Made by a program: the position numbers and the translations under genes. A stretch of DNA of 64,000 nucleotides, taken from positions 145,005-209,004 of the forward strand of contig JAJTUP010000099.1 in the NCBI GenBank assembly GCA_021399435.1, read 5' to 3'. This stretch comes from Diaporthe sp. PMI_573 (lineage: Eukaryota > Ascomycota > Sordariomycetes > Diaporthales > Diaporthaceae). Each line of letters begins with the position of its first letter. Within the stretch, counting starts at the first letter, position 1. The notes below the pieces were generated by a model. That model searched no databases. It saw only the letters and a program-made list of their open reading frames with translations, and had not been told where the DNA came from. Shown here piece after piece: positions 2,444 to 64,000 of the stretch.

Positions 2444-2445
2444 TA

Positions 2446-4307: not shown

Positions 4308-5305
4308 TACCAGGGATTTAAAGCTATCTTGTAAAAGTTGCTTTACTTCCTTATATTGCCCCTTAGTGTAAAGCTCCAGAAGAACTTAATACAATGCGTC
4401 ACCATTGAGTTTAGTCATATCCGTCTTCAGGGAAAGTAATGATACAAAATTGTCTGCAGTATATATATTGCGACTGTAATATGCAGTTCATTCGTTGAAG
4501 CGTTGATCTTCTGATATTACGCCCGCTTCAATTTGCGCCCTCCGAATGGCCTCAATGTCGGCGAAAAGTTCATTTTCCACCTGCTTGATAATGGGTTTGA
4601 AGATTTCATTGGGACTACAAGAATGGGCGGGTATCGTCCTCCCCGCAGGCACCTAACCCCAACGTGTACTGTCAGGTCACCGGTTTGGAAGTCAGAACTC
4701 AGAACAGGAGAATATTCAGCGTCTGTAAAATTGAGAATGCTTTTCTTCGGCTGCTCTGCAGAAGTCTTCAATGGATCAAGATAAGCTTGGGAAGTTTACC
4801 CTTATCCCCACGGACACTACAAAGAAGCTTGAATGGACTATCTGGGGTCTGGTTAAGATGTCCCCTGCAGTCGGTGTTCGATCTTTAGCTTTCCATGGAA
4901 GATCTGATCCGTGGGAAATCGGAGAGGTGAGTGAACTGCTAGAGTACCATGATAAACAATTGTATATATGACAAGAGCAGCGACGGTTCACCGACTTTGC
5001 TCTGAGATCCTGACCTCTATTCAGCCCCTTGCCATGATGATGGCATAAGTTAATGGAAACACTTTTAAGCACATATATATACACAGCACCTGTCGTAGGC
5101 AGCAAGCTGCTGCTGCTATTGTGATAGCATCACTAGTCTCTGGATATTGGAATATTTCCTAATCGGTCAAGAGGCGCGAGGTCTGGCTTCCTCTCATAAA
5201 GGAGCAGCCTTCCTCTCGGCATCAGACATCGTCTTCCCTCCTGGTGGCGCATGTTGGATGGTGGGAAACCCCACAACTGCTCGCAGTGGGAAGTGGAGGC
5301 ATTAC
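4308..5305. other. Spacer with a possible protein remnant
   Basis: No intact gene is visible. On the minus strand, 4501-4625 reads in one frame as EIFKPIIKQVENELFADI and ends at a stop. This resembles the segment before the GGFG motif in fungal Hsp70-like ATPases, but the ATP-binding motifs are absent, so the resemblance is only a hint. A TATATATA run lies at about 5073. Confidence 0.25.
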
Positions 5306-7040: not shown

Positions 7041-7312
7041 GATGCAAGAGCGGTATTGTGTTGATATGCTGATGATGGAGGTTGATGCTGATGATGGAGG
7101 AGGTGTGAAGGACTTCGGTGTTGGATTACGGATTATGGATTGCGGAGTGCTTGGCTTACGAGATTGGTGAAGGCGAAAAGCGGGGGTTTCCCAGCCACCC
7201 CCTTTTGGTTACCATTATATCACAGCAGTACCCTACACATTTGTGCCGCCGCGTCTCAACAAAGACCCGGGGATATAAACACTACCTAGGCAATAAGTTG
7301 AGGAGGAGCGAT
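7041..7312. promoter_or_regulatory. Bidirectional promoter region between nuclear-protein and kinase genes
   Basis: The 272 bp between the two start codons is the only space for both promoters. GGATATAAAC at about 7270-7279 is a TATA-like box 35-40 bp before the likely kinase start. GATGATGGAG repeats (7069-7100) lie near the other start. Confidence 0.45.
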
Positions 7313-9557: not shown

Positions 9558-10760
9558 AATGCACGTGAAGAATGGAATGATTGGGACCACGAATTCCTTC
9601 TCCAAGCCGAATCCTACGGGCTCAGTGCTCATATAAATCATCGAGAAAACCTCCTACCGAGACCACAGAAACCCGACATCCGACTGCGGAAGTATACGAA
9701 GACCGTCGCAGCCGCACGAGGCGCAACCTCCCAGACAATCGGAGGATCTGCCGACGAAATCGACGAAGCCGAGGTCATCCAGGAGAAGAGGAACGGCCAA
9801 TGGTTGCTATCCGATCTCACCGATGCCGGCCTGAAGACCTATAATCTCGACCTCCAGGGGTACAAGCAACTCGAGCCGGACTACAAGGAAGAACAAAGCT
9901 CGGTCCAGAAACTCAGAAAGTGGATCATGCAGACAGTCGCACCTCCATATAAGTCAACATGCTGTAATGCAGGAGAACCGCTATGGAAATGGCATAACAA
10001 CCTGCAGAAGAGATGCGGACAGTCGAGGGCAGATGAATTGCTAGAGACAAGAACTGCCTACAAGAACTCCCTGAAACCGCCGAGGAATCCGAGGGATGCC
10101 TTGATGTGGGTTGACAAATGGGAAACCGCAATGGCGAAAGCTACCCAACAAGGGGTTGCGGAAACGAAACAAACCATTGCATGGGTCCCGGACCTATTGC
10201 AAGCCTTACAAGGCATTATGCCAATATGGGCAACCACATTTCGGCAGACACGAGAACAGGAAATTGCAGATGGGAGCATTACCTTCAGAAGCGTTGGGAA
10301 CCTTATCCGTAAGGAGTTGCAAGCCTTAAGCTCGCAGAACAAAACTGCTAGAGCGTCAAAAGGGGCATGGGTAACTACCTATGATGGCCTGAAGGGTCAT
10401 GACAGTGATGAGGACGCTCAATCTGTTGATGAGAAGAAACCACGCAGAAAGGGCTTGAAAGAATCACGTGGAAGCAACGCGGGCCAAAAGCGCAGCCGGT
10501 CTAGAGCTGAAGGCTCGACTGATATGTGCGCGGCATGCGATCGGCCCCACGCCCTTGCAAACTGTTACTACGTGTTCCCGGAGAAAGCCTGGAGTGGCTT
10601 CCGGAAGAGTCGAGTGACTGAAGAAAAGGTGCAGGAAGCCCTTGCAAACAATGCTGATTTACAAGCACAGGTCCGAGCCCTCAAAGGTCCGAGATCGAAG
10701 TCCAAGTCAAGGACACCTAAACCGACGAAAGAAGAAGTCGTCGAGGAAGTCGAAGATTGA
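9558..10760 (+). pseudogene. Copia Gag
   Basis: The frame reads through from a TGA at 9555 (AREEWNDWDHEFLLQAESYG) to TGA at 10758-10760, about 400 codons. The first ATG in frame is at 9804, but coding character clearly begins earlier, so the original start is lost or lies in a removed upstream segment. The middle is the helical capsid-like region (WKWHNNLQKRC, ALMWVDKWETAM). A C-x2-C-x3-H-x4-C knuckle (CAACDRPHALANC) near 10528-10565 would bind RNA. A Lys/Arg/Ser-rich tail follows. The next stretch continues in the same frame after the TGA into protease. Confidence 0.8.
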
Positions 10761-13140
10761 CTCCCAGGATATTGTGTCACGAGTATAGAGGCTAGGGGAG
10801 CTTTTGCCATAAACGCAAAAGAATACCCTCTTCGACACTCGGTGATACTTGACCCAGCGAGTACGATCTCGATTACAAACAACAGCGATAGACTGTTCAA
10901 CACAAGACCAGCCACACACGACGATTATCTGTGGGCTGGAGACAGACAATTGCCAGTACTCGCATACGGCACAATGCCGGTCCGCACTGGACCGACCGTC
11001 CTACACCTCGAAAACGTTGCCCTCTGCCCACGACTCCTGACAACACTCGTCTCTCTGAGGCAACTTCGAAGGAAGGGTATCTTTTGGGACAACGAACTCG
11101 TTCCAACAACTTTGAAACGACGTGACAGGTCAACTCTGTGCAAACTCAGGGACATCCACGGCCAATACGTCATCGACTACCAACCACACGAAGTGCAAAG
11201 CGCCTTCAGCACATGGAGGAAGAAACACACTACCTACACCAAAAGGAGACCACTCACAGGCGAAGCCATCCTCTGGCACGGCCGTCTTGGTCACCCAGGT
11301 CCGAGCGCGCTTGAGCACCTAGTTGCCTCATCTCAGGGGGTGCGCATTCGGGGACCAACAACAGTCGAGTGTGAAGCTTGTGCCTTAGCCAAGATCACGA
11401 GGCAAATCCGTCGAGCACCGAGGGAGATCCTCGAACGAGAAGGCGAAAGGATAGCACTTGACTTTCACGACTATGAACCAGGGATCAACAACTATACGTC
11501 GCAACTATTGCTCACCTGCAGAGCATCAGGACTCATCTGGGATTACTACCTCGAAAAGTCGTGATAGCGAAACCCTCCTCACGGTTCTGAAATCATTCCT
11601 GGGGATGATGAAGACGCAATACAACACCAAGGTCAAGATCATCGAATGTGACGGAGAACTGTTCAGCCGCAGACGAGCCGTCAGAGAATTTCTCGAGTCA
11701 AAACATATCAAGATCGAGCCCTCAGCACCCAACACACAAGCACAAAACGGAGGAGCCGAGCGCTCAGGGGGTGTGATCAAGGAGAAGATGCGTGCGATGC
11801 GAACAAGCTCAAAACTCCCACACTCTCTTTGGCCCGAAATTGGACGAACAATCGTCTATCTCAACAACCGAACACCAAATTACGGACTGGACTGGAAGGC
11901 ACCCTACTACCAATTTCACTCAGCGATTGCCAAACGCTTGGGTATCCCACGACCAGATCCAAGACCAGATCAAACTCATCTTCGCGTATTTGGCTGCAAG
12001 GCCTACGCGATGACCTCAGACGCACAGCTCAAGAAAAGAAGACGTCAACGTCTCGAGCCACGTGCATGGATTGGTTACCTTGTTGGATACCGATCATCGA
12101 ACATCTACCGGATATGGATTCCCTCTACCGGAAAGATTGTCAATACAAGAGACGTGATCTTTAATGAGCACGAAGTGTTTGATGGGAATTGGGAAGGCTT
12201 CAAAGATGAGCTTCTCACCACAGACATCAATCGTCTCGCGGAGTGGACAAGAAAATACGCCCTCCCAGACAATGACACAATATCGGAACCGGAAGGAGAA
12301 GATCTGATTGAAGAAAGCTCCCCGGCAGAAGATTCCGAACACGACCGCGAATTTGAGGGACTTGATGCCGATAGCGCCCAGGAGGCAGACGTAGAGACTG
12401 CAGAGGATGATCGCTCCGAGGCGGACCGAGAAAACGGCCCCTACACAGAAGCCAAATTCACCCTGCTACCTACTCCTCCTCGATCGCCGCCATCAGCCCT
12501 GCTCGCACACACAATTCAAACCCAGTCTGGCGAAGAAATGCCGTCTACTGAAGAAAATCAAAAGACAAGCCCGTGGCAGGCCGCATTCATCGCTGGCACA
12601 AAATCTGCCTGGATGGCCAAGTCAGAGGGAAAATACCTGACGAAGGCACAAATTGAAAGACGCTTGCGTCAGGGGGTGAAGTTGAAAAGAAACAACCTCC
12701 CCGAACCGCCAAGATGGCACAATGACCTGGATAATCATCCACTTGGACCAATATTCAGACAAGCAGAAGCTGACCATTTGCAGAGTCACATTGAAATGAA
12801 GTCATGGACCGAAATCCTCAAGAAAGACCGCCGCGCAGCAGGAAAACAAATCCTGGACTGCATGTGGGTGTATGTCTACAAATTCAACAAGCATGGCGTT
12901 CTTCAGAAGTGCAAAGCAAGACTCGTGGTCCGCGGAGATCAACAAGCGCGAGGGCAAACACAAGAAACCTACGCAGCAACTCTCGCGGGACGGTCATTCC
13001 GAACACTGACCGCCATTGCCAACAAATTTGATCTCGAGCTGATCCAATACGACGTTGTCAATGCGTTCGTGCACGCTCCTATCGATCAAGATATCTTCAT
13101 GAGAATGCCTCGAGGATACGAGAAGAAGGGCACAATCTTG
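10761..13140 (+). pseudogene. Copia Pol (protease, integrase, start of RT)
   Basis: In the Gag frame after the TGA come a protease-like site (ILDPASTISI, where DPAS replaces the usual DSGA), the GAG-pre-integrase block (WHGRLGHPGPSALEHL) and CEACALAK. The integrase core follows, with DDE candidates in ALDFHDYE, IIECDGELF and NGGAERSGG. A frameshift at about 11545-11560 (near CTCGAAAAGTCG) moves translation to the frame that stays open to 13215. That frame carries the end of integrase, an acidic linker (12280-12440) and the first RT block. The final 25 codons (MLVSSSSSPASE) belong to unrelated flanking DNA. Confidence 0.85.
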
Positions 13141-27706: not shown

Positions 27707-28803
27707 CTAGCAGAGTATAGTGATAGTGTGTGGTATTTTGGGCTGTTGTATTGGGTTTGGAAAACTTATAGATTGATATATGGGAGAAATAAGCGTGCGG
27801 TTTCAACACCAGTGCGAGTGATAAAAGTCCAATGGTCTCAACACCAGGACATCTTGGCATGGCCGCTTCTTATACTCAAATTGACAATTTTCCCTCTTTG
27901 GTATTGCGAATGATTGATCTCTGCTAGTCTCAGTCCCCTGATCCCTGTCTCAATTATTGACCCTCACCCTATTGGCTAGGTCTCTTAGGTTCGCATTAAG
28001 CTCTTCAAATCGTGCCACTCAAAATGGTGCCTTCTCCTCAAAGCCAGCTGCGTACGTCTTATTGGCTACGCAAAATAAAGCTAACACACACACGCGCCCT
28101 ACTGGCCAAGTCTCTTCATCCACCCACCCAGAGCCGACCACTTAAAACCGCGCCCTCTTCTCAACACGTGCAGCAACCCACTAGTAAAACAGCCATACAG
28201 GCTCTTGTTGCAAGCTTCGTACCGGAAGGCTACTCAGCGCAAGGGAGCCGCCAACTTGCCCACTACGCCCAGCTTCCAACTTCCAACTTCCAACTTCCCC
28301 CGGCGGACGTGCGCCTTCCCCTGTACTGAGTAAACAAACAATTCCAAATGGACGTAAGCTGCCGGCAATCCGCGTGAGCCTTTTGGGGGCCAGCACCGAT
28401 TGGCCCCACTCTTTTGGTGCCATCAGCCAGTTGCGCGTTCTTTCGCCGCTGGCCATACAAAATCTGGACCAATCAGATTCCGAGAAACTTATTTATCCCT
28501 GTCTGCACCAAACCCTCATTATTCGGGAAAACTTATGAATTAATGTAGAGTCAGCCTTCGGCTGAATAAAGCGGACCAATTAGACGCCAGGAACGCCGTG
28601 CTGAGTTTATGAGTTAACTCACGAGTTAGCAGCGATAACTCAAACTCATGTGAGTTTTATGAGTTAGAGTTATGAGTTAACTCATAAACTAGGATTGATT
28701 TAACTAAAATGCCCAGGTATGGCCTTTCCCCAGACCCCTCTTGTGTCACGCTATGATAAAAAAATATTAGAGAATTTGGAAGGAAAGGTAAAAAGGTATT
28801 CTG
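27707..28803. other. Spacer with palindrome cluster
   Basis: No gene. 28604-28692 is packed with GAGTTAACTC-type words, including the 16-bp perfect palindrome TATGAGTTAACTCATA near 28670. A small hairpin TCAGCC-TTC-GGCTGA lies near 28551. Confidence 0.5.
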
Positions 28804-30417
28804 CTATTGAATCGATTTCAGCAGCTGCACGACCGCCTCGTGCCCTCTCCCTGCGGCATTCGACAGCGGCGTCTGGCCATAGCGACCCTTCGCCTCGGGA
28901 TCGGCGCCCCTGTCGAGCAGCAGCCGTACGACCGCCTCGTGCCCTCTCCCTGCGGCATTCGACAGCGGCGTCTGGCCACCCTTATCCTTTGCCTCGGGAT
29001 CGGCGCCCCTGTCGAGCAGCAGCTGTACGACCGCCTTGTGCCCGCTCCCTGCGGCATTCGACAGCGGCGTCTGGGGCGGCGTCTCGCCCCAGTAACCCTT
29101 CGCCTCGGGATCGGCCCCCCTGTCGAGCAGCAGCCGTACGACCGCCTCGTGCCCTCTCCCTGCCGCCCACAACAGCGGCGTCTGGCCCCAGACGCCGCTG
29201 TCGAGGGCGCCCTCGTCGAGCAGTATCTTCACCACCGCCTCGTGGCCTCCAGTTGAAGCCGCCTGGAGTGCGTTGCCGTAGTGTCCACCCTGCGCGTTGG
29301 GGTCGGCGCCCGCTTCGAGCAGCATCTTCACTACCGCCTCCTGGCCTCCGCGTGAAGCCGCCTGGAGTTCTACAAGAAATCCATGTACTACGGTCGGGCT
29401 TTGCCAGGCGAAGGCGCTTGCTTGGGGACGCACGATGCTCGAGACTGAGAGGGCAGGAGACGGCATCTGCGGACTCTGCGCCGCGAGATATGTGCCTCCG
29501 GGCGACGAGACCGAAGCCACCGGCCTGTATACAGAGACCGTCGCGGGCGAGCCTCGCTCGGAGATCGTGTGGCATCCTACAGCAGACGGCGTGGCTCCGG
29601 TGCATCAGCAAAGAAAGGTCGAGTCGGTCTGGCGCTGACTTACATGCTGCTGGACTGGGTGCATACAGAAAGCTCTCTGCTACGTCGTGTCGCTTCATCC
29701 ACCGCTCGATCTTCTGCGGCTCTACTTGGCCGCCTCGTACCTCGAACACAAGCGGGCGCTTGTCGGTCTCGACGAGCTTTCTCTTCTGTCGCTTCCGCAC
29801 GATCGCCTCCATCTCCTGCGGCTTGACGTTCCTGTCTTTGCCCCACTGGCTGATGCGCGTTCGGTACTGCCGTAGCCTGCGGACGCATCTGTGTCAGCAT
29901 CTTGCTGGGGGCTCTCACTTTATCTTGTACGAAGAGGAGCGACGTACTCAGCTTTAAAGCCATACTCCTCCTCGATCATCTCCCTCACCTTTGGCAAGGG
30001 CAGTTTCTGCACGATATGCAAGTCGAGGATGCGTTCCTTATACGGCTCCCAGTCATTCGCGTAAAGAGTCGGCGCCTTGCGCTTTCGCGGCGGATCCATG
30101 ATCGATGGGGCCCCTGCAGGCGCTGTAGGTGCAGACGCAGACGCAGACTGGCTGTTGCCAGCAAACCCTATGTCGAACCGTGCATGGCTAGGGTGTGCTG
30201 TGTAGAGATTGAACGGGTGCGGGGCATGGTTCTGCATAGTCGCGACCTGTCCGCCGGAGAGCTGTACCTGCAGGGTAAATGCAGCGGTCTGATCGACGCC
30301 AACCGATCCGTACAGTTGCTGGGTCGGAAGAGCATTGTGGTGTACAGTATGTAAGGGCTCGAGCTGGCGCGGGTAGGCTGGCGCCAGGTCAGGCAGGCTG
30401 CGCGGCGGGAGGTCCAT
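28804..30417 (-). CDS. Clr5-domain protein with C-terminal ankyrin repeats, 497 aa
   Basis: Three exons: 30417-29948, 29876-29644 and 29594-28804. The introns are 71 bp (GTACGT to CCGCAG) and 49 bp (GTAAGT to CCGGAG). Start MDLPPRSLPDLAP at 30417 follows a TATATTTT box near 30433. Residues about 115-170 form the Clr5 domain: DWEPYKERILDLHIVQKLPL, then across intron 1 GFKAELRQYRTRISQWGKDR. The second exon has a conserved-looking block (KRPLVFEVRGGQVEPQKIER). Residues about 310-490 are five or six ankyrin repeats (GHEAVVRLLLDRGADPEAKG and variants), ending raggedly at LLKSIQ. Clr5 is a fungal domain linked to heterochromatin factors and often fused to ankyrin arrays. The last repeats are nearly identical at DNA level. 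A long plus-strand frame over the same DNA is a shadow. Confidence 0.85.
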
Positions 30418-31241
30418 CCTCAGTCGTACGAAAATATAGAGTGGCCGATCGCCAGACGCTGTAAGACATGTAGAGCGGGGAGTGCCTGCCTGGGGCAGGG
30501 ACAGGGTAAGGGGGGTTTTATATTTCATGTTGCGGTCAGAGTGAGACTCTGAGGTGTCGCAGTCACGCAAACCTTTAGGCGTGCGCTGGGGAAAGGCGAT
30601 TGGGCACAGGTCAAAACTCCCATTGTTAGCTCAGCTGGCGGAGCGCGCTAACGCTGTTAGGACGCAGCACGGCGCTGGTGGAGCGCCTGTGCGCGAGCTG
30701 TCCAAGCGTTCCACCGGCAGAGCCTCCGCCCCGCCCGCACTAGCAAAAGTACAATTCTAAAGGAGCGAGCAGCACGCGAGCCCGCTCATTGGCCGGCGGG
30801 CAATACTACTCTGCACCCTGGATTGAACTTTGGCATGACAACAAATCACGAACGAATAATCGCAATGGGCGTGCCGACCATCTCGCTCCTGACGCCCTAC
30901 CATTGCGTTTCTTCTGCAACGACGCACGAGCACGTAACCTGCCTGTACTCAGGTGCCGGGGCAAAGATGCTTCAGAGTTCTCATAATGCTCAAGAGTCAT
31001 TTCAGCATCTATAAGTAGATATGTTTCCTGCTAATGAGCGAGCTTGACTGTTATCTTCAATTGTGGTACAAGAAGAAATACCGTCTTCGACACGGACATA
31101 ATACTAGCCATTTCCCGCCTCCTCCTTATCCTGTTGCTAGACGTGGTGCATGTGTCGTTTCTTTTCGCCTTCTCCTAATCAAAACTGCATTTTTCTACCA
31201 GATTAAAGTAATCACGAACGCGGACCGAGTAGCAACATTAC
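30418..31241. other. Intergenic region
   Basis: Promoter side of both flanking genes. A short tRNA D-arm-like string occurs at about 30627-30652 but no tRNA can be folded. Nothing else supported. Confidence 0.4.
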
Positions 31242-50600: not shown

Positions 50601-50808
50601 TGTTGAATGGCCTTTGCCATATGGCGTAATGTACGTACGTACGTGTCTGTGCAATTGATTCTGAATTCGTTGATGTCTGTGTAAACTATGAAACAAGCGG
50701 GGAACTTCGCGCGCAGACCTAAGAGGTCTGCATGCACTCCCTTGCCTGCTTAGTCATCCTCCCTAGCCAATATGGCTATGTGCGATCAGCCTCAGTGCTA
50801 TTCCAACA
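50601..50808 (-). repeat. 3' LTR of the Copia element
   Basis: 208 bp, beginning TGTTGAATGGCC and ending TTCCAACA on the plus strand, with TG...CA ends in either reading. It matches 57883-58090 base for base as far as I can read. It contains (GTAC)n and an inverted AGACCT-AAG-AGGTCT hairpin. Confidence 0.95.
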
Positions 50809-51259
50809 CTGGGGGTCTTTTGTTTTCTGATCGCACACTCCCTTTGGGCCGGTCGAGCAAGTTGAATTGCTCGTACGCCCTTTTCCCATAACAAATGAAA
50901 ATCACCCTGCCCAGGCAGGTTGTGCTGCCATGGTTTTGGTGGGCGTGCGATGTAAGTGAACCCCCACTTGGTGGTCCAGATCAAGCACTTATTGCACTAA
51001 CTTTCTCAACCTTCTTTTCAGCACCCCTTCTGACCTGCTTTCCAACCACCTTTTCTCACGACTCTCATCGTACTGGCCAGAAGGCTAGAAGGGACTGTTG
51101 CCTGTGACTCACTTGTACGAGTGACCCTTTTTTCCAGCCAGTTGAGGTGGTCTGTGCACAGCGCCCTTCTGGTGCCAGCACAAAAACCTCACGCCTTTCG
51201 CCTTTTGCTTCAACCTTCCCTTCTTCTCTTCTCTATCGCACGACACTCTTTCTCTCTCT

Positions 51260-51292
51260 CACACACACACACACATACACACACACACACAC
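51260..51292 (+). repeat. CA microsatellite
   Basis: About 15 CA units with one interruption, in the CT-rich leader just upstream of the antisense gene. Confidence 0.9.
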
Positions 51293-51360
51293 CTTGTGTG
51301 TCGTGCGATCAAAAACATCTTCAAAACTTACCCCCCCATCGTCACCAAACCTTTCACACG

Positions 51361-51788
51361 ATGGCCAACGCTTTCGGGGTCATGACTGTCGACGAGCTGG
51401 ACGGGGTGCGCTGGCTGAACCTTCCGACTAGCCAGGTGGTCAACCGCCGGTTCCTTCTCGCGATGTGCACCAGTGTTCGTACTACCCTTCCTCCCCTTCG
51501 CACGACATGCCCTTGCTAACGTACGAAAAACAGGATGAGGAGCGCAACGCCTGCCGTCTCCCTTTGCGCGATATCTCGATTCGGATGGCCGACGGCGACA
51601 CGATTCAGCTGGCTTGGGCCAAGCTTATTCGTCGAGAGAGCTACTTCCGTGCGATCATCATCCAGTCGCGCGGCAATGTGGCTGGCCGCTGTCCCCAGAA
51701 GTGTGGTAACCGTCGGGTTACCTGTCGTACCGAGGCCTGTGTGCGCATCGATGGATTCTGTGGTGGCGCTTGTGCTGAGTGCGTCTAG
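51361..51788 (+). CDS. Antisense cysteine-rich protein inside the Copia element, 122 aa
   Basis: It reads opposite to Gag-Pol. Exon 1 is 51361-51474 (MANAFGVMTVDELDGVRWLN) and exon 2 is 51534-51788. The 59-bp intron (51475-51533) has TTGCTAACG and ends AAACAG. Exon 2 starts DEERNACRLPLRDISIRMAD and carries a cysteine cluster: C-x3-C in GRCPQKC, then VTCRTEAC and FCGGACAECV. This pattern resembles the fungal DUF3716 cysteine domain (moderate, from memory). Two TAG codons follow at once. Beyond them the same frame continues with SHGNRCGHHDSNQPSD, which would complete the cluster, and an acidic tail to a stop at 51980. The original protein was thus probably about 187 residues, shortened by TGG-to-TAG-type changes. 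A CT-rich, CA-repeat leader precedes the start, as in fungal promoters. Confidence 0.7.
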
Positions 51789-52174
51789 TAGTCGCACGGC
51801 AATCGTTGCGGCCACCATGATAGCAATCAGCCGTCCGACTCGGAGGATGAGGATGATGAGTCGTACGACTCAGACAACGATGACGAGGAGGATGATTCGG
51901 ACGATGCTCGCAGTAATGCCAGCGTCAAGATGGAGGACATGGTGATTGATCCCTGGCGCAACGCTCAGGTGATCGAGTAGGGGGAGGATCGTACGGAGGG
52001 TGGTGAATTTTCGTGAGCTGGGTTGAGTCGTGCGTTGAGCTTTTTGTACACTACCACAAATTGACTCCCCTCTGACCGTTTTTCTTTGTGCGAAAGTCGC
52101 CTGCTCTTTTGTGAAATGTTCTGTCGCACGGTTGGGGTCTTCCCTTTCTGGTTCCCCTGGGCCAATTCTTGGCC

Positions 52175-52414
52175 GTCCTTATGTAGCCTGACACTGTCCT
52201 GGGTTTGCCTTTGGTTGTTTTCGTGCGATCTGAAGTGTCCTGGCTCTGTCCTGGTGTGTCCTGGACCTGTCCTCGTACGTCCTTGAGCAGTCCTAGCCAT
52301 GTCCTGAGTTGTCCTGGCTGTGTCCTTTGTGCGTCCTGAAGCTGTCCTGTAGCTGTCCTGGGCCTTTCCATCGTGCGTCCTGGGCCTGTCCTGGGCCTGT
52401 CTCCCTTCAGTCCT
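52175..52414. repeat. GTCCT array phased at 10-11 bp
   Basis: GTCC(T) starts at 52237, 52248, 52258, 52269, 52279, 52290, 52301, 52311, 52322, 52333, 52344, 52354, 52377, 52388, 52399 and 52410, with two outliers in phase at 52175 and 52196. Steps are 10 or 11 bp (one gap of two units), averaging close to the DNA helical repeat. The bases between are degenerate. On the Gag-Pol sense strand the word is AGGAC. It lies between the convergent ends of Pol and the antisense gene. Confidence 0.9.
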
Positions 52415-52450
52415 CAAGTTTTTTTTTTTCGTGCGGCTGTCCTGCAGCTT

Positions 52451-52510
52451 TTTCTTCTTGTCCTCGTACCCTCCAGTCCATTTCTTCTTGTCCTCGTACC
52501 CTCCAGTCAA
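52451..52510 (+). repeat. 30-bp tandem duplication
   Basis: Two adjacent copies beginning TTTCTTCTTGTCCTCGTACC, differing by one base at the end, next to the GTCCT array and 46 bp from the Pol stop. Confidence 0.92.
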
Positions 52511-52555
52511 GCACCTCTTCCCTTATTCCTCCTTATAATCACGCCCTTATTCCTT

Positions 52556-55500
52556 CTAGCTGAGGCGTTCCACGTACGCCTCCACCCTGATCTTTAACGT
52601 ATTTGTTGAGATCAGCTTTTCCAATGCTCCATTTGGTGCCTTCTTCGTACAAGCATCAGCTGGGTTGTCCTTCCCATCGATCCACCGTACTTCAGAAATT
52701 TCTTTCTTTTCGTACGCTTCCCTCAGTGACATGATGTCAATCATCAGTCTCTTCTCATCTGTCGTGCCCAGCCTAACTAGACAGTCGTACAATGATCTTG
52801 AATCTGTACAGATAACGACTGGAATTCTTGGCATTTCCAGACAGGTCATAATCTGGTTGAGTGTCGTACTAAGTGCCATGCCACTGTCAAATCCAGTCAT
52901 CATCCCATACAGCTCACTCGCCAGTACGCTTCGAGTCACTCTTTTGCACTTAGTTGAGCTCCAATGGATGATGTTTCCACAGATTTCAAAGTCCTCTCTC
53001 GTACGGCCAGCTTCCATTGCCAGTACAATAATAAATCCTAGCTGTGAGCTAAGATCCATGTTGTTGGCAAAAGACCCGTCTGTAAAAACATAGAGCTTCG
53101 CACGTTCAAGGTCCAGTGGTACAAATGTTATTCCTCTTTCAGGATTTTCCATTTGCCACTTGATTCGTACGTTGAGTGCCTCTATATCTTTCTTCTCGGG
53201 ATCCTTGATTTGTGCGGCCACTGATAGGTCGTACGCTGCTTCCGGTTGACATATTGAAGCAACATATGCACCCCTCGCACGTTGTGCGACGTACTGTTGG
53301 GGTCTATCTTCTGCTTCTGGATCGATTAGGCGAAGGTTTGCGATTTGTCCCTTCTGTACGAAGGTAATATTGTCCTCATCAAGTTCAATCCTTCCTCCAT
53401 TGAATTCAATTGGCTGTTGTGGTCCCAGCATTTGCTTGTCCTTTGCACGGAACTTCTTCTTCTCCAATTCCTTTTCTTCCCTCCCAGAGAATAGGGGGGT
53501 TGCAAACCCAAATGTATCGTCTGTCTGCATTCCAACCAACCCAAATTCGTGCGGCCCATTTGTAGTAAACAGCAGACATGGGTCGTACGTGGAAACCTTC
53601 ATTTCCAGGGCTTCAGTGTGGTGTGAGTGGTATGTTTTGTACCAGTGTAGGCCTGACTCTGCTAGCCCGTACAATGGCTTCTGGATCAGAAGAATTGTCC
53701 CTGGTGGATACCTGTCGTGCAATTCGGCTGGCAATTCTGCCAAGATAGTGCGCGTGAGTGGGTCGCGCGATTGTGTATAGGCTTGGGTAATGTCCCTCAA
53801 TTCCCCTTGGCAGTTGAATTGTTGTACGAGGGTCGGTCCCAGTGCAAGGATTAGCCCTTGGCTCATCCTCTGGATTGTTGGGGCTTGGGTTAGAATTGCT
53901 TCCTTCTCTGAATCCCCATACCCTTGTACGACCAGCCTAGACTTTTCTATCGGCTTAGTCGACCTGTTCTTTACCTCTCGTACCATCCTTGTCTTGAAAA
54001 TCCGGAGCCCACTATGTCGTCTTGCATCGTACCGAATGAATTGGAAGACATCCTCACTGGCTAGTGCGTCTATTTCCAGTGCATCAGACTCTTCGAACGG
54101 TCTTCCAGGAGTAGTGATGACGTTGTCTTGGCGAAGTTTGACTGCCAAATCGTACGAGTCCTTCTCCTTCTGGGTGAGAAAAATACCCGGCAACCACTGC
54201 ATGTACGTAACAAATGTTGGTCGTACAGCAGCCCTGCGGGGGCGTCCTCTTCTCCTTGGTTGAATGGCTTGTACGGTAGCCTTCCTTGGTCGTCCCCTTT
54301 TCCTTGGCTGGGGTTGTTCTCGTACAATAGGCTGAGGGGTATCTAATTCGTCTTGGGGTATGGCTTCTACCGTACGGTAATATGGCTTGACATGTGTTGC
54401 CCGTATTTGAATTGGTCCATTTGTCGTACCCACTGTGATTGTATGTCCCTCGATACTGTCGACTTTGTACGGTCCTTTCCACCCCTTATTTTCTCTCCAG
54501 ATCAGGACGTCGCTCTGAATTGGTAGAGATAGGGTAGATTGGAGGTCCGGGCCATTTCTGGTGTTGATCGCACGGTTGACTTCCACCTCGGCTCGGATCG
54601 TACGTAACATCTTCATTGCTTTCTGAACTGCTAATGCTCGTCGTGCAATATCTGGTGAGGGTGGCGAGTCTTGTGATATCCGTGGGTATGCTCCAAAAAC
54701 TAGGAGTGTTGGTACGATGCCATTTGGTCCCGCAGTATCGTTCAGTGCCTTCACGGCCATCTGTAGGAGTGTTTCGTCGTCCGTACAGTAGCCAATCTCA
54801 GCCTTCAGAATCTCAAAAGCTCTTCTCAGGGGGCCGTGCGAGCGTTCAACCTTGCCCAAAGCCCAGTGTGCTTCTATGGGCATCTCTTCGCACGTAATTC
54901 CCATGATCTTTGCATTGTTCCGGAATTCCTCTGAAGCAAAGTTGGTTCCTGGGTCATGTACGATGTGGTCTGGAGGACCAATATATGTGTAGATCCAGCA
55001 CTTGCAGAGTGCATTCCAGGTGTCTCGTGCGGAAAGAGAGTTGAGAAATGTGGCTGCTTGAAAGCTTGTGTCTGAGTCGATTACATGAAGTACATTCCTT
55101 TCGCCTAGGTGTACGACGTCAATAACCACTTCGTAGTTAAAGTGGCTTTCGTCTTTGATTGAGAACTTGAATCTCCTTGGTGATGGATCGTGCAGTTGGC
55201 AGAAGTGGCAGAACTTCTGAATCTTCTCCAGGATTGCCTCTTCAACATCATCGTGCCCTGCATTCCTCAATAGCTTGTATAGCCTGTCCGTACGAGGGTG
55301 CCCAAATCGTCTGTGGAGTCTCCTAAGCTGTGGCTCTGTGAGGAATACCCCAGCCTCCGTACGGCTTGTGTTAAAGAATGCATGTCCCCATTTCCTAACT
55401 ACCGGAATTGTCGTATCCCCTTGTACGATGACGTCTGATAGGTTGTTGAAGTAGGCTTTCAGCCTGTCTGCATCGTACAGGGAGAATAGAAAAGGGGTTG

Positions 55501-55816
55501 ATGTGTCTAGGATATGGTATGTAACACTTCCCAGTTGGTTTACAACCTTGATCGTACCAACCGCTGAGATAGCGTCACTATCACCAAATTTGACTTTGGC
55601 TGTGTCTGCACCCCATTTGATCTTCGTACCTGGGTTTTCTCGTACGTAGGCTAATGCTTGTAGCATCCCCACTGTAGAGAACTTGGCGGCTCCTGTGTCC
55701 CAGAGCTCTCCCTGATACTTCGTACTATATGGGTCATGCAGTACGAATTGGCTTGCCTCAGTCACTTTTGGGGCTGTGTAGATGTCCTCCCCCAGTCGTG
55801 CGGTGGTTGAATGCAA
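52556..55816 (-). CDS. Copia Pol polyprotein, 1,086 aa, uninterrupted
   Basis: Domain order is that of Copia. Aspartic protease site ELWDTGAAKFSTVG is at about residue 40 and the GAG-pre-integrase block (RRLHRRFGHPRTDRLYKLLR) at about 170. The integrase core follows with D, D and E in EVVIDVVHL, IVHDPGTNF and GKVERSHGP (about 235-330). A linker with GRPRK AT-hook-like repeats (KRGRPRKAT, RRRGRPRRA) comes at about 500-530. RT spans about 600-830 with QTDDTFGF in place of the usual YVDD. RNase H has YVFTDGSFANN, SVLASELYGM and ICTDSRSLYDC, ending IDGKDNPADACTK. The AT-hook-like repeats are unusual and could target DNA. The natural start is a frameshift from Gag or a single polyprotein; the ATG at 55816 may not be used. 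Confidence 0.92.
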   Translation of the reverse strand: MHSTTARLGEDIYTAPKVTEASQFVLHDPYSTKYQGELWDTGAAKFSTVGMLQALAYVRENPGTKIKWGADTAKVKFGDSDAISAVGTIKVVNQLGSVTYHILDTSTPFLFSLYDADRLKAYFNNLSDVIVQGDTTIPVVRKWGHAFFNTSRTEAGVFLTEPQLRRLHRRFGHPRTDRLYKLLRNAGHDDVEEAILEKIQKFCHFCQLHDPSPRRFKFSIKDESHFNYEVVIDVVHLGERNVLHVIDSDTSFQAATFLNSLSARDTWNALCKCWIYTYIGPPDHIVHDPGTNFASEEFRNNAKIMGITCEEMPIEAHWALGKVERSHGPLRRAFEILKAEIGYCTDDETLLQMAVKALNDTAGPNGIVPTLLVFGAYPRISQDSPPSPDIARRALAVQKAMKMLRTIRAEVEVNRAINTRNGPDLQSTLSLPIQSDVLIWRENKGWKGPYKVDSIEGHTITVGTTNGPIQIRATHVKPYYRTVEAIPQDELDTPQPIVREQPQPRKRGRPRKATVQAIQPRRRGRPRRAAVRPTFVTYMQWLPGIFLTQKEKDSYDLAVKLRQDNVITTPGRPFEESDALEIDALASEDVFQFIRYDARRHSGLRIFKTRMVREVKNRSTKPIEKSRLVVQGYGDSEKEAILTQAPTIQRMSQGLILALGPTLVQQFNCQGELRDITQAYTQSRDPLTRTILAELPAELHDRYPPGTILLIQKPLYGLAESGLHWYKTYHSHHTEALEMKVSTYDPCLLFTTNGPHEFGLVGMQTDDTFGFATPLFSGREEKELEKKKFRAKDKQMLGPQQPIEFNGGRIELDEDNITFVQKGQIANLRLIDPEAEDRPQQYVAQRARGAYVASICQPEAAYDLSVAAQIKDPEKKDIEALNVRIKWQMENPERGITFVPLDLERAKLYVFTDGSFANNMDLSSQLGFIIVLAMEAGRTREDFEICGNIIHWSSTKCKRVTRSVLASELYGMMTGFDSGMALSTTLNQIMTCLEMPRIPVVICTDSRSLYDCLVRLGTTDEKRLMIDIMSLREAYEKKEISEVRWIDGKDNPADACTKKAPNGALEKLISTNTLKIRVEAYVERLS

Positions 55817-57593
55817 AATCTACTAGATTCTGTTGGGGATGCCTCGTTGTCTGTATCCCACGGATCGAATAGTGAACCTTCCACTTCGCACAGTGGATCC
55901 TCTCCTTCGTACTCAAGCAAGTAGGTAGCAAACTTCTCCTCTTCCAGGATAGGTTCTTGCTTGAAGTCTTCGCACGCCTGGAGGTATTGTTTTCGTGCGT
56001 CTATCCTTTCCTTGTCTGTATGGTTTGTAGACCAACACCCATCTTTCTTGCATACAAAGCATTTCATTGTCTTAGCTGTTGTACGGTATGGTTTGAAGGG
56101 TTGTTGTTGTCTTGGTCTGAAGGAAATTCGCGCTGAGGAATGGTGGTTGTTTGGCCGAAAAGGGGTTTGTGGTGAAGATTGGTGATTGTACGAAGTCCTC
56201 TGGCGGTCCTTGAAGTTTGAGCTGTACCTCCTGTCCACAAAATTGATTCCAGCTTCTTCGTGCGACATGAATTGTTGGATAGAGTCTCTTTCCATAGCTA
56301 CTTGCAGAGCTGCACGAAGGTCTGCAAATAGGGCCTCGCACGTAGGCTTCTGGTTGATCATGGCGGTTCCAATTCTGGTACTGCGCGGCATGCTCTGACC
56401 ACTGTCGTACGGAGTGCTATTTCACCCTGATATCCCTCTCCTAGAGCTCTTTGTACGAGCTGTAGTTTGTCTAAGAGGGTTTCCAAGACTCCGGTAAGGT
56501 CTTGTCTGGGTTTTCTTTCCTTACTCGCACAAATGACAAGGTTGTCCAGTCTGCCCAGTACTGGCTGTGGTTCATTGTTGTGTTGAAGTGTGTGTCCATG
56601 AGGTTATATACTTCGTCCCACCTCTTGTCTGGTCCAATGTGGTATATATAGAAGTCTTCTGCGCGACCAGAGAGGATGTCTGGAAAGACTGCATGGTATT
56701 GATCTTCAGTGATTGCAGTCGTCTGCAATAACCAATAAAGATCCGTACCTTATCGTACAATAGGTCGTAGGCTTGCCGGTATAGTTCCTGTCTTTTCTCC
56801 ACCCCTTCTGGAAGGTAGATACTTGTTGAGGGTCTATCGGCCCGTTGTCGACGATTCGAGTTGGAGGTAGGTCGTACGGTGCATTATCCATATAGACTGA
56901 ATGTGCTGTGAGCGCCGTACCATGTTGTTGTGGAAAATTGCCCACCTCTTGCATGTATCTTGTTCCCGGGGGTGTTTGTCGCGCGGCTTGTGTTTCAACG
57001 GTAGGTGCTCGAAGATTCCGTGATGTCTCGTGCGACTGCATTTGGGGCGGTGGCTCAATTGTCTGTCGTACATGGGCTGGTTCTGGCGCTTGTAGTGGGT
57101 AGTCTTCTGCTGCCTTCTCGGCTTCGATGAGTCGTAGAATCCGACTAGTATAGGGACCCCTTGATGTTGGGATTCCTCTTGCCTCGATGATATTCAGGAG
57201 TACTTTCTTGAACGTACGGTCCACTTTGTTGAATTGGTAGGAAGTCCACCCTTCAAAGTCGTTAACCAGAGACCCTAGTATGTTGGCCTTGCTTAGGTCT
57301 AGATGAATAATATCCATCATGACCCGTGCGAAGTATGTATTGATCTGGGTGTCGTTCGGTGGGGCATCTAGGTCGATATCTAGGTCCCAGTACCTTGGAT
57401 TTGTCGTGCTTCGCCATACTTTCAGTGGTATTGTGCTTCCCTCGCTCATCTCTTCGTACGTCACTTGGTTTCGGCTACTTGAGCTTGCCGCTGTGGCCGA
57501 AGCTGATGGTTCTGGTATATTGGAGGATGACATCTTGTGTGGTGTTCTCGGGTTGTCTACAAGGTGTCCTCTTTGTCGTGCATTGGCGCACAC
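55762..57593 (-). pseudogene. Copia Gag, broken by five single-base shifts
   Basis: Gag begins near MSSSNIPEPSASATAASSSS (about 57530) and stays open to 56775. It then needs one extra base at each of five places to stay in frame: near 56769, 56714, 56491, 56369 and 55810. Pieces in order are RNYTGK, then YDLLYDKVRIF, then ITEDQYHAVFPDILSGRAED and NLMDTHFNTTMNHSQYWADW, then ETLLDKLQLVQRALGEGYQG, then INQKPTCEALFADLRAALQV. The zinc knuckle CFVCKKDGCWSTNH (C-x2-C-x4-C-x4-H) and an acidic tail that leads into Pol complete it. Each site is a homopolymer or doublet one base shorter than expected. The capsid and knuckle regions are otherwise well conserved. Confidence 0.82.
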
Positions 57594-57882
57594 TGCTTCT
57601 TCCTAGTCGTACAAGGTCTTGGCTGCAGATATATTCCGTCTGGCGTTCAATATAGCAGTCTTGATTCGTGCGATTTCGAGAAGATTTCGTCTTCCAGGGG
57701 TGTTCTCTTCCTTCCTGACTGGCGGGGAGGTCGAGATAGCCTCTGGGCTCTTAGCACGAGCGTACGATTCTAGTTGCCTCTGCGTCCCGTCTGGCGTTCT
57801 GCAGCTGCAACCATGGAGTCGTACCGGTACTCGTCTCTTCACTCTTGCTAATCTGTGATCGCACCAAGCAATCACTGATCAG

Positions 57883-58090
57883 TGTTGAATGGCCTTTGCC
57901 ATATGGCGTAATGTACGTACGTACGTGTCTGTGCAATTGATTCTGAATTCGTTGATGTCTGTGTAAACTATGAAACAAGCGGGGAACTTCGCGCGCAGAC
58001 CTAAGAGGTCTGCATGCACTCCCTTGCCTGCTTAGTCATCCTCCCTAGCCAATATGGCTATGTGCGATCAGCCTCAGTGCTATTCCAACA
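57883..58090 (-). repeat. 5' LTR of the Copia element
   Basis: 208 bp identical to 50601-50808. The sequence just inside it on the sense strand, GATCAGTGATTGCTTGG, should hold the primer-binding site, but it does not match the initiator-tRNA complement. Confidence 0.95.
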
Positions 58091-61000
58091 AATACTATAA
58101 AATACTAAAATTAAAACATAGATTAAAATTAATAAATATAATAAAGAATATAAAGTAAAATAAATTATTAACTTATAATATTAAAAAATAATAGAATACT
58201 TTATTAAATAGAAAAATTACAACCTTAGTAAGAATATATAGAAACTAATTAAAAATCTTACTAGTTATAAATAGATTTTTTAATAATACTAAGCCTAAAA
58301 CTTAACTAACCAAAAGACAAAAATATATCTATACTCTAGAAGACTTAAACTACTAGAAATTAAACCTAAGTCTCTAATTTTAATTATTAGAATTTAACTA
58401 CTAAACTATAAAATTTTATACCCTTAATAGTATATAATATACTAATAAGACAAACCTTTTCTTCCTTATAAGTATAAAGCGTAGAAGTACTATTTATTTA
58501 AAACCTACTAGAGAGATTAAATATAACCTAAAAGCAAAAAGAGAATAATTTACTTAACTAATGTTACGGGGTACAGTGTTTCACATAGCTAGTACAATGA
58601 ATTTCTTTCTTAGCCATCCATACTAAAGTACTAGACATACTTCTATCCCTCTCAAGGGCCGAAGCAACAATTAAACTCATTCTTCTATTATTATTTTAAT
58701 AACCTATGACATTGTCTAATCAGAACCCAAACACTACTTTTATTACTTCGTAGCCCTTCCAGCCCTTTTTCATTATCTCTTCTTCTTCACATTAGAGCCC
58801 TCTAGCAGTTTCCTCTCTCTCGCTCAGAGGGGCCAGCAGAACACACACCTATGCTTAGCTTGGTATCCACGTTTTTACTAGTGATCTAGCCCAGGCTAAG
58901 CTAACTACGTAACCTTTAAAGACTAAGGAGAGAGCTCACAACTATCGACTTAGTCTAAAGCTTGCCTGTTCTTCATAATCATGTATAGAATTATCTCACC
59001 TACGCCTAATCAGAACTACCAAGGGAACACCTCGCTAGGAAGAGAGTTATATAACCAAACCAAAGACAAGAGAAGTATAACTAAAGCATATAGGAAGAAC
59101 CCTGCTTTCAAACCTACTCTCTTACCAAGGTTCTAAAGGGTACCCTCTTGACTAAGCTTCACGCCTAAGGCATAAACATTAGCTATTATGCCAGGGATTA
59201 TTTCACAGTAATAGCTAAAGCCCTGGTAGAGTAATACATTTACTTATGAAATGCTTAGTTAAGGAGGGGATCAGACTTTTATAGGATTTATCAAGCTCAG
59301 ATCAGAGGAGAACGGCCCTTAATCTGATTCCATAGTTACTTTAGTAACTAAAGTCTAGTTAGAAAGTAGCGCCATCACGACAATTACCCCCATAATCCAT
59401 CGCGACAAGGTTCGTAGCAAGGTACTTTCAGGTATAAGTACAAAGCCCAAGGAGTATATATAGAGGCAAGGCCAAGGTATTATAGCTTTTAATCAGAGCT
59501 AATAGGAGACTTTAAGGAGAGACTATGTATACTAGGAAGAAGAAAAGCACTTTAAAAAGGTATGATGTTTTAAGTATTATTACTATACTAAGTACTAACC
59601 TAAGAATATTCAACTCTCTAGATAATATATAAACTCTCTTAATAATAAGCCTATAGCTCTAATTACTTTTCTAATAATATCTAGTACTAGAATATCCATG
59701 GTAGCTAGCCCTACTAAAGACGCTACTTCTACCAGAATACTAGGCTTCCTAACTATATTATCTAAAGGCTCAAGCCTACCACGTCTACCTTTACTCACTC
59801 CAAGCTCTACCTACTAGCAAGTAATTACTAGTCCTTAATTCCTCCTGATTACTAAAGGACTAGAAAGGAGTATGGAAGAGACTAGTTACTAAAGAAACCT
59901 AAGCCTAAGGGTAAAGGATTTCCTAGCGAAACCTCTTCACCTTCTACCTAGGACCCTCCTACTTAGCCACGACAACCCCTTTTAGCTAAGCCTAACACTA
60001 TAGGCTAATACCTATTTAGTCTATTTCTCCTATAGTACCATGATACTACCCTAGATAGTACTACTTATATTATATAACCTTAATATACTAAGGTTTGATG
60101 GAATAAATATATTATTAAGTTAATATTTACCTTAGAGGATATTTTCTACTATTTTTTATCTAATGACTAGATCCTTTCCTTGTTAAAACAATACTATACT
60201 AGCTCTGATCTAGTCTATTTAATTAAGAAGGTTACTACTAGACTAAGTACCTAGGCTTTATAGAGTTAGGAACTCTTAGCCTACTTAAAACCAATAATAC
60301 TTCCTCTCAAGTAGATCTAGGCTTGGTAATAGAAGCAATCCTCCGCTAGAATCCCTTAGATAACCTTGAGGAATGAAAATAGAGGATTACTAACTACAAC
60401 TAAGTACTAATTAAAGCTAGAGAGACGTCTAATTAGGGAAGCAGGACCTTCTATAAGACGCTTCCATCCTAGATCAAGAAGTAGCTTCTTTCTAGACTAA
60501 CCTATAAGGAGAAGGTTAAAGACATACCCTAGATAAAATTTAAGGATAGGCTTCTATCTATCCTTAATAGAGAACTAGAGTACTCTAAGCAGGACTATTA
60601 CCTAGCTATAAAAGGACTTCCTAATCATTCCTAGACAAACCTATAAAATTAATAGAATCAACAGTATATAGAAAAGTAACGAAGTAATGATCTAAGATAC
60701 TCAAACCTACCAATATATATCTAGAACCTATTAGACCTAATTAGTATAGAAATCAGGGTAACAATTCTTTTAAATAAAGGATAAACAACCTTATAAATAA
60801 ATTTACTAACTTAAAAATCAAGTAGCTAAGAATATAAGAGGAAAAGGAGATTAATAAATAACTTAGACATCATACTAAAGCAACCTCTTATAATAGACAA
60901 TAAACTAAACTTAGACTAACTAGAACAAGTATAATAGGGTCTATTCAAAGACCTAGTAGCTAGGAAATCTACTCCCTAGCCTTAAGTAATAATAATAACA

Positions 61001-61580
61001 ATACTTATAGTATTTCTACTATTTAGCTAAAGAAGGATAGTTCTCCATATATATACTACGGCTATATAAGAAAGAAGACACAGCTTATAAGTATAATAAG
61101 ATTAATAAGCTTATTACTAATAAGCTCTTCTATATAGAAAAGTACAAGGGTTCTTTAATAATCCTTAGTACTATTATAAATACTTAAACAAGTATTCTAA
61201 ATTTCTAGACCCTATTAGTATTTAACTCTATTATAATTAAAAAGGAATTAGGATTAAGAAGTATACCAGAGGCTAACTAGAGTTTCTATCATAGAAAGGT
61301 AAAACCAACTTACTATACATCCTTTAATACTAAAAACTCGTTAAGGCAAACCTATCATTTAGAGGTAACCCAGCCTTAGGAGAGGTTAAACTAGTCTAGA
61401 ATCCTGAAACTACTAGGAAAACCACTAGTAATTAGATCCATATTAATAACCTTAGACCCATCTCTCTATACCATTACTATAAACAAAGAGTAGATTTATT
61501 TAAAAGATCTACAAACCTTTATTAATACTATAAAAAAAAAATAAGTAATAGAGGACAGTATAGATCAGGACGACAAGGTA

Positions 61581-61832
61581 ATGTACGAAGCTATACTAGA
61601 TACCCCTCACCCTAAAACACACGTCTACTTTAAAAACGATTTACCAAGTCCAAGTAGTCTAAGCAAAAAGAAACTAGATAACTCAGAAAGCCACGTAGCA
61701 AAAGAATTTACTAGGTACATAGAACATGATCAAGTTAGTACAGCAGCAGGGGCGGTAGTAGAAAAACCAACCCATGCTAAGCTAAAAAAACAACTAGCAG
61801 AAACCTTACCTCTAGAAGAAGTAGTAATATAG
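61581..61832 (+). pseudogene. Gypsy polyprotein segment, longest open piece in the RIP block
   Basis: An 83-codon frame (MYEAILDTPHPKTHVYFKND through KKQLAETLPLEEVVI) is the only sizeable open stretch. It belongs to the region between Gag and protease in fungal Gypsy elements (HARYIEHDQ-like TRYIEHDQVSTAAGAVVEK). After the TAG the frame continues with VILSKTIKIHTSNLLVLG-like text, so the stop is a mutation inside a longer gene. Confidence 0.6.
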
Positions 61833-63389
61833 GTAATTCTTAGTAAAACTATAAAGATACATACTTCTAATCTCCTAGTCTTAGGGAGATAAATACTACT
61901 CTAATTAGGTACCTATAAGCCCTATAAGATAGGGTAAGGACTATTTCATAAGTTCCTTTTAAACCTGTCTATAAAATAAGGGGATAGAGAGACCAGTACC
62001 CAAGTATCAAAGTTATCAGCACTTTAACAAGCAACTTACTAGGGGAAACTACTCCAACCCTAATAATGATTAAATATTATATTAGCTCTCTAGCTACATT
62101 AACTTTAGATATAATTAACTAAGGATATTATAGTTCAGCTTTCCTTACCATATATATAGAAGTAACTAATATATACCTTTACTAGCTTTACTTAATACCA
62201 GGGTAGAGATAAATCTACTACTATTAAGCTATTATAGCCAAAACCAGCTTATTTTTCTCCTCTTAAGGATATAACCTCTATAGTCTATAATAGAGAAGCC
62301 TTATCTAATTAAGGTAACTAAAGACTAGATTTACATTAGCCCTAAGTAGATAAAGTAAGTTTTCTTTATTATTAACAATATAACCTATAATATTACATAC
62401 TATATTCTTCTTAAAATACATTCTTTCTTAATACTAATCTAACCTTTAAAAAATTAAAGGGTTTCCTATTTATACATTATGCTAGGAGACTCCTAGATAA
62501 AGTATAGCCTAGGATAAAGGAACTAAAAGCCTTTTTATATAGTCCTAGTAATAGTACACGAGTCTTAGAAAAATATATTCCATAGACTTTAGCTATTTAA
62601 AATATATTTAGAGTAATCTAATTAGAAACTAGTAGTAATCAATACTCTAGTTAAGCCTTCTTTAACCTATCTTAGTATTAAAGGGTAATGAAATTCTTAG
62701 TATCCTCTAGGATAAGGATATTTAAAAGTTATTAGTTTCTTTTATAAAAAGACCTTTAGTACGAAGTACATTAGCTATATATACTTAAAGGTATTAAAAA
62801 ACCTAATCCTTAATATATCTATAGATTATATCTAAAAACAAGAATAGCCTATACTTGTAAATAGATAAACTTGATCTCATTACCATAAGTATTGCTAAAT
62901 TAATTAGTTATACTATTAACTTATAATTAGAACCCTCTATAAGAGGGTAGGAGTTAAAGTATATCTAGTAGACGATTACCTATTTAATAGATTAGTTCTA
63001 AGAGAACGATTAACTAGAAGCCAAGCTATGAAGTAGAAATCAGGGATATTATAAACTAGACTATAAACGATAAATAACCCCTAGATATGGCTAAAATTCT
63101 CTAAGATTAAGAGGAGATCTCGACTTACTCCTAATTACTTAGAATAAATTATGAAGAATAACTATGATAGCTTTTTAACTAAGGAAAAAAATATATTTAC
63201 CTATCTCTTATTAATAAAGAAAAGGCCTTACCTAGAACTAGTCTATATATCTTAAATCAATAGATATTACTTTACCTTAAATAATTAAAACCATACTATA
63301 CAAGGCCTACTAAGTAAAGATAATTAAGTTACCTAGAGCCCTTAGTAATAGCTATTAAAATACTAAGAAAAAGAGAGGTAAGTAGTATT

Positions 63390-63990
63390 ATCAAGGAATC
63401 TTACATAGTATATTAAAATAGCTATTCCTAGTTAAGAAAAAGGACTCAGGGTACTAGCTAATTAATAACATCTTTAAGGAAATAAGGTTATAATTAGAGA
63501 CGCCTTTATCCTCTAGTAGTAGATGAATTTATAGAGGAATTTTATAATATAGAAGATTCTCTCTCTTTTTAGATTTCTTCTTAGGCTATGATTAGGTAAA
63601 GCTTAATAAGAAGAGCCACGATATAACAACCTTTATAACACTAATTAGGTTATCAATAATATAGCCTACTTATAGGTACTACTAATTCTATAGCCTAGTT
63701 TATATAATATATAGTATAGCTATTATATAACTTATCCCCTTAATCTATAGACCTTTTCTAGATAATATAGCTATTAGAGGTCCTAACATAGATTATAATA
63801 ACAAGGAAATTCCTAATCTACCTAGAGTTAGAAGATATATAGTAAAATATATTAAGAATCTTAACAACATTCTCTACATATAGAACTAGCTAGTATAGCT
63901 ATTAATACCTATAAGTAGAATAGTATAAGTATTAAACTAATATTATAAATAATATATAGTACTCTTAGCTAAGTACTAGTAAACAAAAAG
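63390..63990 (+). pseudogene. Gypsy reverse transcriptase remnant
   Basis: Scattered conserved words in the usual order: LFLVKKKDSGYxLINNIFKE, then FLDFFLGYDQVKLNKKSHDI, TTFITLIRLS, RPFLDNIAIRGP (the site of the catalytic FLDD motif, here FLDN) and RRYIVKYIKNLNNIL. At least a dozen stops interrupt it. The second catalytic Asp has become Asn (D to N, a G-to-A change as expected from RIP). Confidence 0.75.
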
Positions 63991-64000
63991 ATCATTAAGA

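Follow-up and report, generated by a model that had tools for sequence, protein, structure and literature searches.

A Copia-type long terminal repeat (LTR) retrotransposon of the fungus Diaporthe sp. PMI_573 carries a dense array of the short word TCGYRC from LTR to LTR, and there is strong support for this array being a nucleic-acid-level mark under selection. The element occupies 50601..58090 (7490 bp, gag-pol on the minus strand) of a window of 64,000 nucleotides (contig JAJTUP010000099.1, positions 145,005 to 209,004 of the forward strand) from a genome of 83.7 Mb. Selection is indicated by a synonymous null model, a codon-process null model, the even spacing of the sites, and a degeneracy that is confined to YR at the centre of the word. 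Between pol and its 3' LTR the element also contains a predicted antisense gene, assigned to the DUF3716 family by way of a relative. We put at roughly one in two (about 0.5) the probability that the sites, in full TCGYRCGA, are read as double-stranded DNA by this family-encoded protein, which would keep the element from being silenced or mutated.

There are 112 TCGYRC hexamers at 102 centres within the element, or 15.0 per kb, against 2.05 per kb outside it. An earlier note on this DNA had claimed that TCGTAC, TCGTGC, TCGCAC and their complements saturate the element and are near background in its flanks and in a Copia relic at 9600-13100. Counting bears this out: 103 of these strict hexamers start in the element and 7 lie in the relic, and when the DNA is divided into 1-kb bins, each of the seven between 51001 and 58000 contains 10-17, compared with 0-7 (mostly 0-4) in every other bin. 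The 26 copies reported for 53980-55800 are recovered as well (25 with their start within 53980-55795 and a further one starting at 55796), and the individual positions given agree to within about 2 bp, apart from 54783, where there is no strict site. Sites are also present, as claimed, outside the sense genes, namely in the antisense intron and in the two identical 208-bp LTRs (50601..50808, the 3' LTR of the gag-pol strand, and 57883..58090, its 5' LTR; two TCGYRC sites each), while those within pol fall in all three reading frames. Short tandem arrays occur only at 51260-51292 and 52235-52508.

Ranking of 6-mers with no prior motif placed CGTACG (52 on both strands, 1.7 expected) and TCGTAC (53, 2.4 expected) at the top. 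Amongst the 16 words TCGNNC, strong enrichment is seen only where NN is TA, CA, TG or CG, with counts of 53, 27, 23 and 9 against 2.4, 3.4, 3.4 and 1.9 expected. The corresponding counts in L066 (C208), a 6.4-kb element whose Pol is about 75-76% identical to that of the window, are 41, 24, 27 and 8 against 2.2, 2.6, 2.6 and 2.1. Flanks of the core favour T before it, and G then A after it. Since only YR is enriched at the centre, the word can be described as the degenerate palindrome TCGYRCGA, in which half-sites are tolerated, and it is better written TCGYRC(GA), with TCGCGC included. The complete palindrome occurs 10 times in the window element and 21 times in L066.

Codon choice is insufficient to account for the array, as the earlier note had argued. 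Codons were shuffled synonymously within open reading frames (ORFs), and 19 ORFs from the window outside the element served as controls. The pol ORF holds 44 strict hexamers, compared with 8.4 +/- 2.7 after shuffling (maximum 17 in 2000 shuffles), and the gag-side ORFs at 55762..56391 and 56706..57593 hold 10 (1.5 after shuffling) and 9 (2.1 after shuffling), respectively. For exon 2 and the tail of the DUF3716 gene the excess is not significant (5 against 2.5). The density of the element is not quite exclusive to it: three of the control ORFs score above z 4 by one or more measures, namely a pogo-like transposase at 2530-3732 and two overlapping ORFs at 28704-29954 and 28807-29604.

The near-regular spacing described earlier also stands, the gaps being far more even than under random placement. 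The 102 centres have a mean gap of 73 bp and a coefficient of variation (CV) of 0.57, whereas random placement gives 0.98 +/- 0.09, with none of 20,000 trials as low; in L066 there are 79 centres with a mean gap of 80 bp and a CV of 0.51. Short gaps, up to 25 bp, are scarce (10 against 29 expected in the window element, 6 against 21 in L066), and so are those above 147 bp. Between CGYRC centres the window element has none of these long gaps where 8.9 are expected, and L066 has 2 where 9.4 are expected; between TCGYRC centres the counts are 4 (13.2 expected) and 7 (12.2 expected), respectively. Such even spacing, with few nucleosome-sized stretches left unmarked, fits an address that needs to cover the whole element.

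Longer stretches around relatives were examined at six loci out of at least 20 candidates in the genome. In the window's own family (family A), LTR matches range from 100% to 89% identity (40 scored of 209 candidates). L066 contains 100 TCGYRC hexamers (15.7 per kb), with one outside it (0.58 per kb). Comparable densities inside and outside are found in L063 (C209), a partial element with a reverse transcriptase and an uninterrupted DUF3716 ORF (13.9 and 0.21 per kb); in L064 (C166), where DUF3716 sits within a piece of 1.2 kb (20.4 and 1.36 per kb); and in L061 (C158, of which C181 is a copy), an LTR with a DUF3716 remnant (14.0 and 1.03 per kb). The array is shared by these four loci and not by L065 (C113; Pol at 56%), where neither array nor DUF3716 was found though Gag and Pol are present. 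AT-rich, interrupted relics have few full sites, and in many of them CGTACG is still above expectation.

Turnover of sites was followed in codon-aligned Pol sequences of the window element and L066 (1054 codons; 75.5% amino-acid and 71% nucleotide identity), using a null model in which codons were drawn from the changes observed at non-motif places (5000 draws). The two sequences have 45 and 55 sites, of which 24 coincide in position; the hexamer has changed in 10 of the 24, and 14 of them span amino-acid differences. Kept sites exceed the null (24 against 5.5 +/- 2.1, maximum 14), as do gained sites (31 against 5.8 +/- 2.4). Similar results were obtained for the window element and L063 (kept 11 against 2.8, gained 11 against 3.0) and for L066 and L063 (kept 17 against 3.5), and there is no excess between the window element and L065 (kept 1 against 2.6, gained 6 against 7.0).

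It is very improbable that the sites are a mutational product, whether of biased composition or of repeat-directed mutation (RIP), through CpA-to-TpA change of CGCAC or CGTGC. Transitions do connect the forms CGCAC, CGTGC and CGTAC, and among DUF3716 loci RIP-like relics are frequent (TpA/ApT 1.37-1.56 in 19 of 20 AT-rich loci, L044 left out). The element itself, however, has no RIP signature (TpA/ApT 0.79), and L065, a related Copia element in the same genome, is without the word. Mutation as the sole cause is contradicted by the synonymous shuffling, the codon-process tests and a spacing more even than random.

The word has also left an imprint on Pol in other fungi. When 120 analysed homologues, out of 444, were clustered by single linkage at 62% identity, groups of 92, 22, 3, 2 and 1 resulted. 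The group of 22 includes proteins of Colletotrichum tabaci, Xylaria grammica and Truncatella angustata, metagenome proteins, and P0049, which matches the window's own Pol. By mean excess of compatible residues, GTACGA is first of 2080 hexamers in this group (z 4.97) but only 204th in the group of 92 (z 0.78); it ranks first in 16 of the 22 members, with a worst rank of 12, and reaches the top 20 in 6 of the 92. TCGYRC is likewise first of 256 NNNYRN words in the 20 clade members that are less than 73.5% identical to L066. Tests for independent gain across the clade gave weak or mixed results, and because these proteins share ancestry, the imprint demonstrates age and breadth rather than 22 separate origins. 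In two proteins outside the clade, P0138 and P0160, GTACGA is also first of 2080 hexamers, and these possibly represent a second lineage with the word.

Density across the genome was judged by a single clustered pattern, TCGYRCGA-N40..70-TCGYRC-N40..70-TCGYRC, which occurs at 47 places, compared with 13 for the reversed control. Assignment by eye, from coordinates or matched text, attributed 45 of the 47 either to elements of this Copia clade or to promoters and loci of DUF3716, with C138:527869 and C143:324560 left unassigned. Clustered sites are thus nearly confined to the clade and the DUF3716 loci.

The earlier note had left open whether the mark acts in DNA or RNA and whether a protein binds it. 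A selected nucleic-acid mark is what the tests support; given that the site is palindromic, if degenerate, and is used in both orientations, double-stranded DNA is a likelier carrier of the mark than RNA. A signal in genomic RNA, such as packaging or RNA-protein contacts along its length, would account for the unequal orientation in the window element (76 to 36) and for the greater frequency of GYRCGA on the Pol coding strand (33 to 13). It would fit less well with the palindromic form, with the more balanced orientation in L066 (58 to 42), or with the sites found in the antisense gene as well as in the intron and promoter of that gene, and we consider it improbable.

The candidate reader is encoded on the plus strand, with splice sites predicted solely from the sequence. 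Exon 1 is predicted at 51361..51474 (its end placed by phase and by length relative to homologues), an intron with TCGYRC sites at 51475..51533, and a Cys-rich DUF3716-like exon 2 at 51534..51785; an acidic tail follows in the same frame at 51792..51977, past two TAG codons at 51786-51791. The gene is assigned to DUF3716 provisionally, by way of its 77% identical relative in L063, which matches PF12511 (30.2 bits, cut-off 22); the window pieces themselves gave no Pfam match. Homologues are found in Pyricularia, Colletotrichum, Xylaria, Nemania and others, and one of 48 DUF3716 matches (P0040) has an added GCR1-type domain. Several Cys residues and one Trp are amongst the invariant or nearly invariant positions of 30 aligned members, from which zinc binding is predicted.

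The promoter of this gene (51236..51308) consists of a palindrome, TCGCACGA, a CT/CA tract and a second palindrome, TCGTGCGA. A module of site, CA-rich tract and site recurs upstream of DUF3716 at five loci; its palindromes are complete in the window, in L064 and in L061, and half-sites take their place in L063 and L062. As the window and L064 are close, these represent four distinct lineages; in a further locus, L057, no DUF3716 start was found in the promoter comparison. The paired sites are kept in L062 (C8) even though its lineage, with DUF3716 at 41%, is without the element-wide array, and 10 of the 19 sites at this locus lie within 6492-8211, around its DUF3716 gene. Autoregulation, if it occurs, would explain paired sites in this position.

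We suggest that a dimeric DUF3716 protein might bind the palindrome at sites about every 65-80 bp over the whole element, coding sequence included. The protein would be made by uninterrupted copies such as C209 and act in trans on family members, including L066 types that have no DUF3716 gene of their own. Its coat would keep the elements free of silent chromatin or RIP, a pressure whose existence is shown by the RIP-like relics among DUF3716 loci; the outcome would be anti-silencing, and the paired promoter sites might serve as an autoregulatory switch. Recognition by DUF3716 is favoured by L065, which is without both the array and the gene.

Several results weigh against this. The DUF3716 exon 2 is identical in five copies including the window, and in all five the two TAG codons interrupt the frame at a position read as Trp-Gln in homologues. 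A single stop lies there in C166, and C158 and C181 stop at the same Trp codon; the frames of C209 and C30 read through this position. A search of L066 by tblastn found no DUF3716 despite the full array, and conversely no element-wide array was found in L062, where DUF3716 is present. Fold comparison gave no informative match, and the unrelated pogo-like element and the ORFs at 28.7-30.0 kb are mildly enriched in the word. The array might instead be read by Gag or integrase, in replication or targeting, or by a host protein that binds DNA and makes chromatin accessible or raises transcription. The L066 types, the interrupted frame and the enrichment of TCGTAC in the pogo-like element would all be consistent with another such reader. 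Against it stand the sites that DUF3716 promoters retain, including those of the lineage of L062, which has no array, and also L065, in which Gag and Pol occur with no array; we consider it less likely than reading by DUF3716.

In L036 and L054, two diverged lineages (96% and 44% relative to the window's protein), stops again fall on the invariant Trp codon at which the window's DUF3716 frame is interrupted.

The remaining features of the element are those of a Ty1/copia retrotransposon, with direct LTRs and an integrase ahead of the reverse transcriptase. The pol ORF (52556..55816, minus strand, as are the gag-side ORFs; 1086 amino acids) matches rve at 228-308 and RVT_2 at 610-793, both below curated cut-offs, and PF07727 is present in many Pol homologues. 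No matching target-site duplication is visible at the element. The flank at 58091-64000 is AT-rich, its GC content being 26-38%, and shows a RIP-like signature, with a TpA/ApT of 1.68. Elsewhere in the window, a Pogo/Fot-like DNA transposon lies at 2444-4309 (DDE_1, HTH_psq, HTH_Tnp_Tc5; inverted ends); TCGTAC is mildly enriched in it, and CGTAC occurs 13 times against 4.2 under synonymous shuffling. A 72% relative of this transposon has 9 TCGYRC in 1.5 kb and a 58% relative has 2. The region 28000-31000 has 17 TCGYRC centres over ORFs in 3 kb, including three pairs exactly 13 bp apart; the sole ORF scanned there (28704-29954) has no Pfam match.

The earlier note had likened the element to the VANDAL transposons of Arabidopsis and their VANC proteins. 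The two systems share enrichment of a mobile element in one short word, a candidate reader from the element's own family, and escape from silencing as the likely purpose. In contrast to VANDALs, which are Mutator-like DNA transposons whose VANC words are described as lying in non-coding tandem repeats (cited parts of PMC5735166, PMC10398659), the Diaporthe element is a fungal LTR retrotransposon with Copia-type pol, its sites are dispersed and evenly spaced through pol and gag, and its candidate reader is a putative DUF3716 protein. Transposon type and motif placement thus preclude membership of that system. The analogy is reasonable, with circumstantial support from the DUF3716 identity and the paired promoter sites, and is weakened by the dispersed coding sites, the interrupted frame and L066; the element may work like VANC/VANDAL in outline.

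In the plant elements Grande, RIRE2 and Retand, additional ORFs in antisense orientation are described downstream of pol, ahead of the 3' LTR (cited part of PMC7264820), and the fungal gene brtn of Boty is an antisense ORF (cited part of PMC8365987). These ORFs of unknown function resemble the Diaporthe gene in position and orientation, but brtn lies in a Gypsy-type rather than a Copia element, and for the plant ORFs a dense site array is not among the features described in that part of the source. Fungal DNA transposons encoding TET/JBP dioxygenases (cited part of PMC12730594) offer another parallel, as the gene they carry may have epigenetic marks as its target; these, however, are enzymes in DNA transposons, and a site array is not among the features described in the cited part.

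A wider proposal, to which we give somewhat less than even odds, is that the entire Copia genome might be an even lattice of docking sites for its own DUF3716 protein: Pol would have been bent to this end in several fungal orders, nearly every nucleosome-sized stretch would be marked as a shield against silencing or RIP, and sister elements would borrow the protein. DNA-level selection is seen here shaping a polymerase. If the proposal is true, a self-recognition code would extend across an entire retrotransposon, genes included, and be visible in protein sequence. DUF3716, a fungal family of unknown function, is named as the candidate reader, and escape from silencing or RIP as the candidate outcome; VANC-like addressing would then reach beyond the DNA transposons of plants to LTR elements of fungi.

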